Assembly (NCBI GenBank): GCA_944324235.1
Contig: CALUVN010000024.1
Coordinates: forward strand, 1 to 33,475
Length of the DNA: 33,475 nt
Source of the DNA: Candidatus Gastranaerophilales bacterium
GTDB taxonomy: Bacteria > Cyanobacteriota > Vampirovibrionia > Gastranaerophilales > Gastranaerophilaceae
Direction of reading: 5' to 3'
Each line of letters opens with the position of its first letter. The stretch's first letter is position 1. A program made the translations under genes and the position numbers. The notes under the pieces were generated by a model. That model saw only the letters and a list, made by a program, of their open reading frames with translations, was not told where the DNA came from and did not search any database. Shown piece by piece: positions 4,356-27,686 of the stretch.

Positions 4356-6248
4356 ATGGATTATGTGAATAATAAATTTGATTGTATAGTCGTAGGAGCA
4401 GGTCACGCAGGATGTGAGGCCGCAATAGCCTGTGCAAGACTGGGTGCTAAGGTTTTATTGTGTACGCTGAATATTGACAATATCGCACTAATGCCTTGTA
4501 ATCCGGCAATCGGAGGCCCAGCAAAGTCTACACTTGTCAGAGAAATTGACGCCCTCGGCGGAGTTATGGGAGAAGCAGCAGATGCTACTTACATACAAAT
4601 GAAAATGCTTAATTCCTCAAAAGGTCCTGCCGTACGAGCACTCCGTGCGCAATCAGATAAGCGGCTCTATATGGATTATATGAGAAATATAATCGAAAGC
4701 ACAGAAAATATTTACCTTAAACAATGCTGCATCACAGAAATAAAAGTTGAAAACGGAGAAATTACAGGCGCAATAGATGAATTCGGTATTGAATATCAAA
4801 CACGTGCAATCGTACTTACAACAGGAACTTCCCTTGAAGGACGTATTTTTGTAGGTCTGCAATCATACAGTGCCGGCAGACTCGGTGAAAAAGCCGCTAT
4901 CGGCCTTTCAGAATCTCTAAGACAACACGGAATTCAAACAAAAAAATTAAAAACAGGAACACCTTGTCGTGTGGATAAAAGAACTATTGATTATTCAAAA
5001 ATGACAATTCAACCGGGGGATGAAGAATTAAACTTCTATTCATTCAAACCAAACAGACCCGTACGTCCGCAGTATCCGTGCTACCTCACCAGAACAACCG
5101 AAGAAACTCATAAAATTATCAGAGCAAATCTTGATAAATCACCTATGTACAGAGGACTGATTCACGGTGTAGGTCCGCGCTACTGTCCTTCTATAGAAGA
5201 CAAAGTAGTAAGATTCAGCGAAAATCCTTCACACCATATTTTTATTGAACCTGAAGGACTTGGAACTTATGAAGTTTACATTCAAGGATTTTCTTCAAGT
5301 CTTCCGGCGGATGTCTATACGCAAATGCTGCGTACTATGCCGGGATTAGAGCATGCGCATATTATCAAACCTGCCTATGCGGTTGAATATGATTATGTTC
5401 CTGCCGTACAAACAACGCATTCACTAATGTCAAAACAAATAAAAGGTCTGTTCTTAGGCGGTCAAATAAACGGCACAAGCGGTTACGAAGAAGCTGCGGC
5501 ACAAGGTTTAATTGCAGGTATAAATGCATATAACTACCTGAACAATTCAGAAATGCTTGAACTTTCAAGAAGTTCTTCCTACATCGGAACACTGATTGAT
5601 GATTTAGTAACAAAAGACATAGACGACCCGTACAGAATGCTTACATCGCGATCAGAATACAGGCTGCTTCTGAGACAGGACAATGCAGACGCAAGATTAA
5701 CCCCAACAGGACACAAAATAGGTCTGGTTGATGATGCTCAGTTCAAAATTTTTACCGAAAAGCAGGAACTCATAGAAAAAGAAAAACAAAGATTAATGGA
5801 AACAAAACTGCCTGCAACAGACGAAGTTAATGCAATACTGGCAAAATACGGTGAACACATTGAACGAGGAATGAAACTCGGAGAAATCCTTAAACGCCCT
5901 AATGTTTCATACAAAATTCTGAAAGAAGTTGATAATGAAACAAACGCTCTGAACATTCCAAGAGATGTATATGAACAGGTGGAAGTTCTTATAAAATATG
6001 ACGGATATTTGAAACGTCAGGAATTTCAGGTAGAACAGTCAGGAAAACTTGATAAATACAAAATTCCTGATGACATAGATTATACAAAACTTGACCACAT
6101 ATCATCAGAAACTAAAGAAAAATTAAACAAAATCCGGCCAAAAACACTTGCGCAAGCCTCAAGAATCGGAGGGGTTAAACCTGCAGACATATCGATATTA
6201 ATGGTTCTTCTGGAACGCAACGAAATAGCAAGAAAAGTACTGTCTTAA
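4356..6248 (+). CDS. mnmG: tRNA uridine 5-carboxymethylaminomethyl modification enzyme MnmG
   Basis: MnmG (GidA) is the FAD protein that, with MnmE, installs the (carboxymethyl)aminomethyl group at U34 of several tRNAs. Visible are the dinucleotide-binding motif [12 protein letters not shown] (from residue 12), [22 protein letters not shown] (from about residue 49), the segment [31 protein letters not shown], and [22 protein letters not shown]. The C-terminal part has the MnmE- and tRNA-binding character. Starting at ATG 4356 gives 630 residues, matching the usual 620-630. An in-frame ATG at 4320 would add 12 residues that do not look like the family N terminus. Neither start has a good SD. 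Its TAA forms a TTAA overlap with the convergent small gene. Confidence 0.95.
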
Positions 6249-6517
6249 AAATCTCCTAGCCGCTTATATTTGATGTTAGCGTTTTTCAAAATAGTTTCAA
6301 TAATGTGATTTCTGTCATCTTTTGTAGTAATTTCAACAGTATCGAACACATTTGTGTTACGTATTCTTGTAAATGTATAGCGCGCATTATCTATCCAGAA
6401 ATTACTCATTAGCATACCTAAAGTAAAAACCTGCGAACGTGATTCAGCTGATGATGTATCAATCTGGTATCTTGCGTTAAAATTAGGGGTATATGAATTT
6501 ACACGATTAATCTGCAC
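6245..6517 (-). CDS. Small unknown protein with N-terminal F-x-A tag
   Basis: This is a 90-residue protein of unknown function. It starts at GTG with a GGAGG sequence ten bases upstream. Its opening MQINRV followed by PNFNAR belongs to the N-terminal tag shared by several unrelated proteins here (30037, 27686 and 23445). The rest is soluble and polar, with no membrane segment or recognisable domain. It may be the last gene of the minus-strand rimM-trmD transcription unit, 80 bases after trmD. However, an extended -10 (TGATAGAAT on the minus strand, near 6539-6547) offers it a promoter of its own. Confidence 0.7.
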
Positions 6518-6597: not shown

Positions 6598-7293
6598 TTA
6601 ACCTTTTGATTTATTTATATAAATTTCGTACAAATCAGGACGTCTCTGTCTGGTACGTTCAAGCCTGCAGCGTTGACGGAATTCCGCAATCTCTTTATGA
6701 TTTCCGTTTAAAAGAACTTCAGGAACATGCAACCCTCTAAATTCACGCGGTTTTGTATACTGCGGGTATTCAAGCAAACCGTCTGCAAAACTGTCCTCGT
6801 CAGCAGATTCAATCTTTCCTAAAGTACCTTCAATTTTTCTGCTGACAGCATCAATAACACAAAGTGCAGGAAGCTCGCCTCCAGTCAGCACAAAATCTCC
6901 GATTGAAATTTCTCTTGGCTTAATCACCTCGCGGATTCTTTCGTCAAACCCTTCGTAATGCCCGCACAGCATTATTATCTGATTAAAAGCTGCTAATTCA
7001 TTGACTGTTTTGTCGCAAAAAGGTTCTCCCTGAGGTGAAAGCATTATTGTCACAGAATTTTCGCATTTATCAATACTATCATACGCATCAACATAAGGCT
7101 GCGGCATCAAAACCATTCCTGCACCACCGCCGTAAGGAGTATCATCGACTTTTTTATGCTTATCAAGCGTAAAATCGCGGGGATTGATTGTATTTACCTT
7201 TATAATATTATTTTCTAAAGCCCTCTTTAAAATACTGAAATTACAAGCATTTTCAATCATTTCCGGAAACAGGGTCATCACATCAAAAATCAT
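6598..7293 (-). CDS. trmD: tRNA (guanine-N1)-methyltransferase TrmD
   Basis: TrmD methylates G37 of tRNAs at N1 using S-adenosylmethionine, preventing +1 frameshifting. The 231-residue product shows the N-terminal FDVMTLFPEM, DDTPYGGGAGMV, and the trefoil-knot SAM site LCGHYEGFDERI and IGDFVLTGGE. The C-terminal tRNA-binding helices include RPDLYEIY. It is slightly shorter than the usual 240-255 residues but complete. The start codon overlaps the rimM stop as ATGA (7290-7293), so translation is coupled. This RimM-TrmD pairing is ancient and widespread. Confidence 0.97.
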   Translation of the reverse strand: MIFDVMTLFPEMIENACNFSILKRALENNIIKVNTINPRDFTLDKHKKVDDTPYGGGAGMVLMPQPYVDAYDSIDKCENSVTIMLSPQGEPFCDKTVNELAAFNQIIMLCGHYEGFDERIREVIKPREISIGDFVLTGGELPALCVIDAVSRKIEGTLGKIESADEDSFADGLLEYPQYTKPREFRGLHVPEVLLNGNHKEIAEFRQRCRLERTRQRRPDLYEIYINKSKG

Positions 7294-7805
7294 TCTTCAA
7301 CCAGCCCCTCCAGATTATTTATAACGACTTTTTTATCCTTTATGCTAACGTGTGTAACAATAGCCTTTACAAAAGGCACAAGCGAAACTTTTTTTGACTT
7401 AGTTTTTACAGAAAGCAAATCAGTAGCACCGTTATTTGATACGCCGATAATAAAACCTATTTTTCTGTCATTTGTATCAAAAACCTCAAGTCCGACAAGC
7501 TCATCTATAAGGAATTCATCTTCATCAAGAGATTCACGTATTGTTTCCTCCTGAACAAACAGGAGTGAATTTTTGTACGGCAAAATATCATTTATAGAAT
7601 TAATGCCCTCAAATTTGACAATAGCAAAGGATTTATTTAACCTGCAGGATTTAATCTTTAAGGGAACGTACTCGTGTTCCGAAAGCACAAAAACTTCTTT
7701 CAAAGAACAAAAGAAATCCTGTTGATTCTTTGAATAACCGACTTTTGCCTCGCCTTGTATCCCATGGAAATTTAAAATCTTCCCTACAGAAATATATTTA
7801 CTCAT
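7290..7805 (-). CDS. rimM: Ribosome maturation factor RimM
   Basis: RimM assists maturation of the 30S subunit head through contacts with S19. The 171-residue product has the N-terminal GKILNFHGIQGEAKV signature, equivalent to the family's G-x-[IV]-x-x-x-H-G-[IL]-x-G-E. It also has a C-terminal PRC-barrel domain: LVGLEVFDTNDRKIGFIIGV, DLLSVK, SLVPFVKAIV. Both junctions are 4-base ATGA overlaps, with the zinc-ribbon gene upstream and trmD downstream. The three genes are therefore one translationally coupled operon. Confidence 0.96.
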   Translation of the reverse strand: MSKYISVGKILNFHGIQGEAKVGYSKNQQDFFCSLKEVFVLSEHEYVPLKIKSCRLNKSFAIVKFEGINSINDILPYKNSLLFVQEETIRESLDEDEFLIDELVGLEVFDTNDRKIGFIIGVSNNGATDLLSVKTKSKKVSLVPFVKAIVTHVSIKDKKVVINNLEGLVEE

Positions 7806-8890
7806 GACTCAGGAGTTTCTTCGGTCTTTTTAGGTTTTCTGCCGCGTTTTGGTTTTTCTTCAGCTGTTTTTTCATCTTTAGCACGAGCAGCCTTTGCTTC
7901 TTCAGCAGCTTTAGCCTCCTGTGCTGCTTTTCTGAATTCTTCCGGAGCATCTTCTCTTTCCTGATTCCAACGCTGAAGCCCCATTTGAGAGCGGATTAAA
8001 CCAATACCGACATGAACACGCCACTCATCCATTTTTAACTGAGCCGCAATAATCTTATGGCAACCTATAGGAGGAAGCGGAAGAAGCGGTTCATAAAGAT
8101 TTTTTATAGCGAAAAGCTGATCCGGAGAAATAGCCAGTTTACGTTTAGGGAATGGAAGTTTAGGGAGCATCATTTTTTGTCTTACAAGATTGATGCCGAA
8201 AAATACTTTTCTTGGTTCTAAACCGATTTTTTCACCGATAACTTCGTGGCAATCAGGATTTGGCAGCGGAAGCATAGCCTTGTACAGCAATTCAATTTGT
8301 TCCAATTGCTCCTTGCTTACTAAAAGCTGCTTAGGTCCTCTGCTTTTAGCAGGACGTTTGCCGCCGAATCTGTTATTTTGTGCTCTGTTAAAACCGCCTG
8401 ATCTGTTGTTATTAAAACGATTGTTCTGAGGTCTGTTATAGCCGCCCTGCGGTCTGTTGTTTCCGTAACCGCCACGGTTGTAGCCGCCTGAACGATTATC
8501 GCGATTTTGATTATTATATCTGTTATTAGAATAACCGCCTCTATTATTATAACTGCCGGCGCGATTATCACGTCTGTAACCGTCATTGTTGTATTGTCTT
8601 TGTTGAGGTCTGTTATTAGAATAACCTGCGTTGTAAGAACCTCTGTTATCTCCGCCGCTTGAATAACTGCTATAGAATTGAGGCTGTTCTTCTGTGCTGT
8701 AACCTCTTAACGGTTGCTGTGCTTCTGCCTGTTGCATATCAGGGGCAGCTGGTGTTTGTGAGTCAGCATCTACAGACGAAGCTGATATCATCATTTTTTT
8801 ATCAGGATACAAACAATCCGGACAGATAACTCTTTTGGGGTTTTTTGTCTCAAATTCACGACCGCATTTGGTACACTTGTTTACATACAT
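7802..8890 (-). CDS. Zinc-ribbon / RGG-like disordered / tandem-repeat nucleic-acid-binding protein (unrecognised family)
   Basis: I do not recognise this 362-residue protein as a named family. Residues 1-30 form a four-cysteine zinc ribbon (C6, C9, C23, C26). Residues about 60-185 are low-complexity, rich in Asn, Arg, Gly and Tyr, with repeated GGYNR, NNR and RSGG units like RGG-type RNA-binding and condensate-forming segments. Two copies of a domain of about 55 residues follow (191-247 and 254-308) and align without gaps: S-x-[ED]-Q-L, L-Y, LPLP, C-H, I, V-x-x-G-I-x-L-[VI]-R-x-x-M-x-L. The second half of each looks like a helix-turn-helix. The tail is Ala/Lys/Glu-rich (309-345) and ends in a basic AT-hook-like KPKRGRKPKK. 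It has an AAGAGG RBS, a TATAAT at 8919-8924 (minus strand), and a 4-base overlap with rimM. An RNA- or ribosome-related role is inferred from this context. Confidence 0.85.
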   Translation of the reverse strand: MYVNKCTKCGREFETKNPKRVICPDCLYPDKKMMISASSVDADSQTPAAPDMQQAEAQQPLRGYSTEEQPQFYSSYSSGGDNRGSYNAGYSNNRPQQRQYNNDGYRRDNRAGSYNNRGGYSNNRYNNQNRDNRSGGYNRGGYGNNRPQGGYNRPQNNRFNNNRSGGFNRAQNNRFGGKRPAKSRGPKQLLVSKEQLEQIELLYKAMLPLPNPDCHEVIGEKIGLEPRKVFFGINLVRQKMMLPKLPFPKRKLAISPDQLFAIKNLYEPLLPLPPIGCHKIIAAQLKMDEWRVHVGIGLIRSQMGLQRWNQEREDAPEEFRKAAQEAKAAEEAKAARAKDEKTAEEKPKRGRKPKKTEETPES

Positions 8891-9052
8891 ATTTGAAAGC
8901 CTCTTAATTTAAAATAAAATTATAACAACAAAAAATTTTTAATCTCTGAAATTCCCACTTAATTAATAAAATCAATTTTTCATAGTACTACTATTTATAT
9001 TTTATATAATAACATATAAATTATAATTTTGCAATAGTTTTTACAAAATATT

Positions 9053-22209: not shown

Positions 22210-23445
22210 CTATTTCTCGCCAAATTTTTCAATAGTAGCTTTCAACATTTCCTGTGCTTTTGCAATAGTTGAAATATCTTCTGCTTCCATTACATCTAAT
22301 CTATCCATATAAAAACGCTTACGCTCTTTTATTTCATCAGAAGTTATGGTTTTATCATCACGTAACTTATATTCATTTGATTGTTCAATTAAATTTTTAA
22401 CATACTCATCAGATTTAAATTTTTGTCTAGCGTCTTTATAGTATAGAGGAATTTTTTGTCTGATACCTGACATATACCCGTCTAGCATTTCACTATGCAT
22501 TTTACTAATTACAACAGGAAGTTTTTCTTCGCCTCTGAGTTTGGCATCTGCAATGTAAGCATTCATAAATAACGGTTTTGAGATGTCTTCCCGCAATCTT
22601 GTTTTTATCACATCAACATTATTTGCAATTCTTCTTCCCGGAGTTTTTTCCGGATACATCTTCTTTGTATCAATATGCAATTTACCCATCGTTCTGGCAA
22701 TATTGTATACATATTTAGATTCAAGTTCTTTTGCTTTTGCATAATGCGGACCGTATAGAATTATCAATTCTAACGGCTGTCTGTTTTCTTTTTTACCAAT
22801 TTTATTTGAGGGTACAAATCTCATCTGATAATCAGAATATGTGCTGCTGCGTGGTTTTGAAATTTCAGCTTTGCTCAAAAAAGGCCCCAAAATTTCTAAA
22901 TCTTCGGGTGTAATACCGTTTTGGCGGATTTCTAAATCAGGTTTTCTTACCCACTTGCCGGTTTCAGGATTTAAAGTTTTAATTACCGCTATTTCATAGC
23001 CTTCATCTTTCATCGTATCAATAAATTTTTTAAATGATTGAATATTCTGTTGATCAGTCCAGTAAACCGTACCTCGCACTGCATCCTGAACATATCCCTG
23101 TCTTTCTAATTTATCAATAAAAGATGCACGTGATTTTACAGGATGCTTACTGTTATAAACTTCATCATAAACAAATCCCTCATCAGAAAGTTTTTCACAT
23201 GCATTTTTTAAACCTATATGAAAATTTTTGGCAGACTCAATAAATTTACCTACCTGTGAAAGATATGACTGTTGTATTGCTTCTGCAATAACATTTGTAG
23301 ACTCTTTGGTATTTTTTCTTGCAGTAAATGATACTGTATCTGCGCTTAATCCGTTTAGATTTGAGTGCTGAGTACATCTGCTGTTTGTATTATATTTTTG
23401 TCTGCTTGCTAAAATTTGGAAATTAGGGGTAATAGTAAGATTCAT
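22210..23445 (-). CDS. RelA/SpoT-like nucleotidyltransferase domain protein with N-terminal F-x-A tag
   Basis: The 411-residue protein has an unstructured N terminus containing MNLTITPNF and VSFTARK (about 38-44), the local tag. The central part fits the RelA/SpoT synthetase fold: VKSRASFIDKL (103-112) resembles the ATP-site R-x-K-x-x-S-x-x-x-K motif. D121 with R124 in DAVRGTVYW, then SSTYSDYQMRF (200-210) at the G-x-x-D/Y step, and LELIIL with E226 followed by H234, K239 and Y245-Y247 match the E-[IL]-Q...H...Y end. No HD hydrolase, TGS or ACT domain is visible. A charged helical domain of about 160 residues follows. It could make (p)ppGpp, pyrophosphorylate another target as ToxSAS toxins do, or be inactive. 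GGAG precedes the ATG. Confidence 0.65.
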   Translation of the reverse strand: MNLTITPNFQILASRQKYNTNSRCTQHSNLNGLSADTVSFTARKNTKESTNVIAEAIQQSYLSQVGKFIESAKNFHIGLKNACEKLSDEGFVYDEVYNSKHPVKSRASFIDKLERQGYVQDAVRGTVYWTDQQNIQSFKKFIDTMKDEGYEIAVIKTLNPETGKWVRKPDLEIRQNGITPEDLEILGPFLSKAEISKPRSSTYSDYQMRFVPSNKIGKKENRQPLELIILYGPHYAKAKELESKYVYNIARTMGKLHIDTKKMYPEKTPGRRIANNVDVIKTRLREDISKPLFMNAYIADAKLRGEEKLPVVISKMHSEMLDGYMSGIRQKIPLYYKDARQKFKSDEYVKNLIEQSNEYKLRDDKTITSDEIKERKRFYMDRLDVMEAEDISTIAKAQEMLKATIEKFGEK

Positions 23446-27320: not shown

Positions 27321-27686
27321 CTAATTAATACCTTCCAGATTCCAATTTTTGTAATTTTTCAGGAAGTATTTCTGACCTGCTTCGTGATTTAAACCGCCGT
27401 ATAAAAAATCTAAAGCGCCTGATTCATAAGCATTTTGTAATTTCCCGCTGTTATGAAGGGCAGTGACATGTTTATTTACAATATCAATAATCTGCTGCTG
27501 TTCTTGGGTAAGTTGAGTTTTACCCTGTTCAGGCTTAACAACAGTGGTAATATCTTTCAACAGTCCCTCTTTCAACTGGTCGTGGGTAACAGGTGCAGAG
27601 AAACCTGCAGGAGTAAAAGTTTGTTGATTACCAAAAGATACTTTTTTAGGTGCTGACATTGCATAACTAATAGCACTGATGTTCAT
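27321..27686 (-). CDS. Small unknown protein with N-terminal F-x-G/N tag
   Basis: This is a 121-residue soluble protein of unknown function. It starts MNISAISYA and carries KKVSFGNQ at residues 14-21, the local tag. A Gln/Thr/Pro-rich stretch follows, then helices with GKTQLTQEQQQIIDIVNKHVTALHNSGKLQNAY. The C terminus has GGLNHEAGQKYFLKNYKNWN. AAAGGAA precedes the ATG at about 11 bases. It stands alone, 100 bp from the next minus-strand gene. Confidence 0.65.
   Translation of the reverse strand: MNISAISYAMSAPKKVSFGNQQTFTPAGFSAPVTHDQLKEGLLKDITTVVKPEQGKTQLTQEQQQIIDIVNKHVTALHNSGKLQNAYESGALDFLYGGLNHEAGQKYFLKNYKNWNLEGIN

Follow-up and report, generated by a model that had tools for sequence, protein, structure and literature searches.

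A single-copy zinc-finger protein with a predicted double-homeodomain-like module, confined to one clade of non-photosynthetic Cyanobacteria, as a candidate nucleic-acid-binding factor

What is the task of a bacterial protein that joins a zinc finger, through a long stretch of low-complexity sequence, to two copies of one small domain, and what is to be made of its place directly ahead of rimM and trmD? The question is raised by the reverse-strand open reading frame at 7802-8890 of the window (the whole stretch of 33,475 nucleotides that was analysed), which encodes a protein of 362 amino acids and is present in single copy in its own genome. Our best explanation, to which we assign a probability of roughly 45%, is that the gene encodes a nucleic-acid-binding protein with a housekeeping role, specific to a single clade of non-photosynthetic Cyanobacteria that comprises Gastranaerophilales and neighbours. 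If this core protein of a common gut lineage is indeed a general RNA- or DNA-binding factor, it would be a novelty of gene expression found in one clade only, and its absence from sister families makes such a role testable.

The gene, its operon and its parts

Both the gene and its architecture are confirmed: a C4 zinc finger is followed by presumably disordered sequence rich in Asn, Arg, Gly and Tyr, by two repeats of about 60 residues and by a basic tail. Downstream on the same strand lie rimM (7290-7805; PF01782, PF24986, TIGR02273) and trmD (6598-7293; PF01746, TIGR00088), and within the window both junctions are the four-base overlaps that an earlier note on this DNA had described, at 7802-7805 and 7290-7293. 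That note had also taken the protein to be new-looking, and so it appears: no curated Pfam or NCBIfam family covers the protein, nothing credible in NCBIfam matches the tandem domain, and the open-access literature yielded no paper on a bacterial homeodomain or on this protein. An L19-like (rplS) gene, identified by eye, lies at 262-615 on the forward strand, about 6 kb from trmD; as the classical order is rpsP-rimM-trmD-rplS, the operon is split in the window. Several proteins of the lineage encoded elsewhere in the window, at 6245-6517, 22210-23445 and 27321-27686 (-), share a similar short N-terminal motif (TPNFNAR, ITPNF, KVSFGNQ), possibly a common sorting or partner motif.

The zinc finger occupies residues 1-30 (8801-8890, reverse strand) and reads CxKCxxxFETKNPKRxICPxCLY, with C6, C9, C23 and C26 forming the pair of C4 knuckles expected of the zinc ribbon claimed earlier. 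Its two CxxC knuckles with a predicted beta-hairpin and helix (pLDDT 88 in the model) place it in the zinc ribbon or treble-clef class; the window sequence matches many zinc ribbons weakly and no family at its cut-off. Fifteen of 32 columns are invariant among 16 diverse aligned sequences. The linker that follows (residues 33-184; 8339-8794, reverse strand) is presumed to be disordered and has the composition reported earlier, with a length of 152 residues rather than about 125: N 18%, R 13%, G 13%, S 11%, Q 9% and Y 9%. Two RGG and four RG/GR motifs occur in the window protein and up to 10 RG/GR in other members. Linkers vary freely in length and composition, with tandem repeats of G/P/Q/Y/R instead of N/R/G/Y in three related families (f3, f8 and f9; family numbers f1 to f10 are arbitrary), yet every full-length member has one. 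At the C-terminus the AT-hook-like tail of the earlier note is present as KPKRGRKPKK (7826-7855, reverse strand).

A predicted pair of homeodomain-like units

Across the tandem region (residues 185-316) the two repeats align over 59 columns without a gap, as the earlier note had it, at 36% identity and with an hhalign E-value of 4.5e-16, which points to duplication and not chance. Repeat 1 (residues 185-244; 8159-8338, reverse strand) has predicted helices at 193-204, 214-222 and 226-239, and repeat 2 (residues 248-307; 7970-8149, reverse strand), which opens with the basic arm PKRKLA, at 256-269, 277-285 and 289-302. Given 70 related sequences, all taken from the window or from a scan of named genomes, AlphaFold2 arranged the six helices as two sets of three, with pLDDT near 90 within the helices and a pTM of 0.49 that leaves the mutual orientation of the two units uncertain. 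The top Foldseek matches were DUX4, tandem engrailed and the Oct-1 POU domain, at weak E-values of 0.3-0.7. VIA-align ranked DUX4 first (5z6z, 6e8c; Z 7.1-7.3, 111-112 residues aligned), some two units ahead of most single-domain matches (single homeodomains scored about 5) and still below 8, under which Z may reflect a common arrangement only. At the level of sequence, and independently of these comparisons, the homeodomain family PF00046 matched 13 of 17 members at E-values up to 5 with both repeats in register; one member exceeded the cut-off of 22.9 bits (29.7 bits, E 5.8e-7), the others shown scored 13-21 bits or not at all, and the window's repeat region reached 17.6 bits. At an E-value of 0.01 this locus alone matched in 117 genomes, and 14 control genomes gave nothing. 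One comparison profile was built from textbook homeodomain sequences and serves as support only, the claim being carried by Pfam and the PDB.

The PF00046 match fades in helix 3, where the W48, F49, N51 signature is absent: position 48 is Gly (Ala in a few), 49 is Ile or Met and 51 is Leu, with N50 and L51 invariant in repeat 1. R53, which contacts phosphate in homeodomains, is found without exception at position 53 of both repeats in an alignment of 17 rows, where the two columns are numbered R53 and R116. Each repeat is thus predicted to be a three-helix, homeodomain-like helix-turn-helix, in keeping with the helix-turn-helix look noticed earlier, and the modelled pair resembles the double homeodomain of DUX4; because W48 and N51 have given way to Gly and Leu although R53 is kept, we call the module double-homeodomain-like and not a homeodomain. 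Such a module in bacteria would bear on the origin of the homeodomain. We regard it as rather improbable that this tandem domain and the eukaryotic homeodomain are truly related by common descent, with transfer in either direction, and that the former serves as the core double module of one deep clade of non-photosynthetic Cyanobacteria, self-regulated via a conserved element at its ribosome-binding site.

A fold of this type invites a reading on the DNA side, as a nucleoid-associated protein or general transcription factor whose homeodomain-like units, basic arms and AT-hook-like tail bind AT-rich DNA while the linker holds several sites together. The best structural matches, the invariant R53 of both repeats and the PKRKLA arm fit this alternative, as do the RGR[PK] motif, present in the tail at 40 of 66 loci, and the TAATTA or TAATTA-like sequence within the conserved ribosome-binding-site element of most relatives. 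The absence of the base-reading pair W48/N51 from both repeats speaks against it, and the tail motif, which compared with the AT-hook core RGRP reads RGRK in the window and a canonical KRGRPKK in f8, is missing in many deep members. HU is present in 29 of 29 genomes tested, so that a role as HU substitute is rejected. We consider a DNA-side protein a serious possibility, with the odds somewhat against it.

Distribution, conservation and gene neighbourhood

Of 60 genomes of the family 59 contain the tandem domain, nearly always once, and all 53 of good quality are among them. At the level of the class it occurs in f1, f3, f8 and f9 and was not found in f2, f4, f5, f6 and f7; a sample of the phylum added one more family of the order, f10, and at most noise-level matches in its other genomes, sampled photosynthetic cyanobacteria included. 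Two apparent relatives outside the carrier families were discarded as noise, G095 (E 0.0046, with internal stops) and G260 (E 0.05). Searches with the zinc finger profile recovered the same genomes as the tandem domain. In 84,980 named genomes an exact motif scan led to 414 relatives that were confirmed, of which the 80 listed bear the labels Gastranaerophilales, Melainabacteria, Cyanobacteria or gut and rumen bacteria, apart from one Brachyspira and one Heliobacteriaceae label that both look like misnamed bins. No relatives were found among viruses (tblastn) or plasmids, nor any match in PHROGs. In an RpoB tree of 28 genomes all carriers form one clade (95/94), which fits a single origin. The protein is a single-copy core gene of the carrier clade, near-universal and of fixed architecture, and the earlier idea of a lineage-specific nucleic-acid-binding protein is retained as the leading reading.

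The tandem domain of the window protein shares 58-68% identity with its counterparts in f3, f8 and f9, where RpoB shares 74-77%, and within the family it is more conserved than RimM and TrmD. Zinc finger and tandem domain are under strong purifying selection and the linker is not, a pattern that marks a core factor in which both ends are fixed and a floppy middle is maintained by selection. Conservation of this order, close to that of RpoB, could also mark a structural subunit or partner-binder of a large machine (ribosome or RNA polymerase), in which hydrophobic, near-invariant repeat faces bind protein and touch nucleic acid little. In favour of this are the 43 of 132 tandem-domain columns invariant among 17 diverse members of four families, the LPLPN and PPxGxHK loops among them, together with F46/F47 and L51 in homeodomain numbering. 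Linkers rich in RG/NY and basic tails are, however, usually signs of nucleic-acid binding, and no partner is known; we hold a machine subunit to be less likely than not.

On RpoB itself, f2 genomes have, in addition to the normal gene, an rpoB-like one that is diverged and of full length (G060:C9:856286-859438 and G075:C37:14618-17764; about 1265 aa, more than 1000 bits to TIGR02013). An open frame given as 24,172 aa, which may be masked sequence or an artefact of assembly, contains a C-terminal rpoB fragment at G068:C1:7658-8002.

The coupling to rimM-trmD stressed in the earlier note holds for near relatives, where rimM is directly downstream in 77 of 77 loci with enough flank. Junctions among relatives range from -8 to +23 nt, and four-base overlaps are not the rule. 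The coupling fails in deep loci of the same family (L017, L018, L020-L023, L028, L033) and at every f3, f8 and f9 locus read, so that absence of the gene next to rimM in relatives, which that note had named as refuting its reading, was observed for part of them. Where rimM is absent the neighbours, named by eye from their translations, are sdaAB, secE-nusG, gatB, ftsZ or rpsF-ssb-rpsR, and none is constant across loci. The link is a derived arrangement and cannot define the function.

Many bacteria have a small KH-domain RNA-binding protein near rimM, and it had been suggested that the present protein takes its place. Above the Pfam cut-off, KhpA and KhpB occur among the class-level genomes in f2 and f7 only; the pair is missing together from most of the class (f1, f3-f6, f8, f9). 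In favour of a functional replacement, none of the carriers tested has KhpA/KhpB, the new protein is confined to a clade lacking the pair, and in the window lineage its gene precedes rimM, near the place that the earlier note gives for the KH-domain protein. The same absence in f4, f5 and f6, which have neither the pair nor the 362-residue protein, means that the pattern allows replacement and does not demonstrate it. Moreover, one coincident branch is a single event and not a correlation, the position beside rimM is derived and absent in deep carriers, and the protein has no KH fold (no match to PF13083). We consider replacement the least probable of the alternatives. Of 26 class genomes tested, carriers included, 25 gave no match to the cold-shock domain (PF00313), and with nearly the whole class lacking cold-shock proteins their replacement is an uninformative comparison.

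The leader element, the proposed role and known systems

Upstream of the start codon lies an exceptionally conserved, gene-specific ribosome-binding-site element, AATTAAGAGGCTTT (8896-8909, reverse strand). Conservation of the ribosome-binding site TTAATTAAGAGGCTTTTA amounts to 1.73 bits per base in 74 loci, where the starts of eight other orthologous genes reach 0.51-1.00; about 118 of 144 leaders include its core 7-mers, and an exact match to the 14-base form occurs once in the genome. Conservation is limited to closer relatives, the element being absent in deep ones. Further upstream is a promoter-like TTGCAA-17-TATTAT with an extended -10 TG (9006-9034, reverse strand), whose position ahead of the leader is conserved in relatives. 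No RNA hairpin was predicted from an alignment of 12 leaders, and the leader has no match in Rfam. Autoregulation through the own ribosome-binding site is common to many RNA-binding and ribosomal proteins, and the element is a candidate site for it: its sequence conservation suggests that it likely serves gene-specific translational control, most simply by the protein itself.

The finger, the helix-turn-helix pair, the basic arms and the R/G/N/Y linker make it highly probable that the protein binds nucleic acid. A target on the RNA or ribosome side, for which we put the chances just short of even, is slightly preferred over DNA for two reasons: the most conserved cis-element sits on the Shine-Dalgarno sequence, and hydrophobic residues (F47/V47 and L51 in homeodomain numbering) occupy the base-reading positions of the recognition helix. 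Both favour RNA or the transcription-translation machinery over sequence-specific DNA. The zinc finger and the two helix-turn-helix units would contact nucleic acid, a fixed partner or both, and the flexible linker would add loose multivalent contacts to RNA. The protein may restrain its own translation by binding at the ribosome-binding site of its message, a proposal about as likely to fail as to hold, if not slightly more so.

For a lineage-specific nucleic-acid-binding protein, then, we count its near-universal single copy, with finger and tandem domain in the same genomes; the conservation of the tandem domain relative to RpoB, RimM and TrmD; the predicted three-helix units, with their DUX4, homeodomain and POU matches and a PF00046 hit restricted to this locus; the ribosome-binding-site element; neighbours that often serve translation or transcription (rimM-trmD, rpsF-ssb-rpsR, secE-nusG); and carriers devoid of KhpA/KhpB and cold-shock proteins. 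Against it we count an AT-hook-like tail and basic arms ahead of both repeats, which fit DNA equally well, the small number of true RGG motifs (2) in the window protein, the lack of KhpA/KhpB also in f4-f6, which do not have this protein, and of cold-shock proteins almost class-wide, the lack of a constant neighbour, and an element confined to closer relatives in a leader with no hairpin.

Set beside known systems, the protein resembles KhpA/KhpB in its proposed role as a general RNA-binding protein near translation genes, and differs in never sharing a genome with them here. With RGG and other low-complexity RNA-binding proteins it has in common a long R/G/Y/N-rich linker with tandem units of YGG, PRGG or YNRP type, whereas true RGG triplets are few in the window protein, whose folded parts do not resemble RRM, DEAD-box or cold-shock domains. 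Its finger is like Zn_ribbon_8, the HypA finger, the RNA polymerase 7 kDa subunit and YjdM/PhnA in its C4 knuckles, predicted beta-hairpin and short helix, and stands apart through its own invariant core FETKNPKRxICPxCLY. With the DUX4 double homeodomain (5z6z, 6e8c) and single homeodomains (PF00046) the tandem module shares two head-to-tail three-helix units, predicted here, with helices at homeodomain positions, as well as invariant R53, basic arms and the in-register match of both repeats, which exceeds the cut-off in one member. Unlike these it is bacterial, has one extra residue before helix 2 and Gly and Leu for W48 and N51, falls below the Pfam cut-off in most members, and occurs in one polypeptide with a zinc finger and a linker of N/R/G/Y type.
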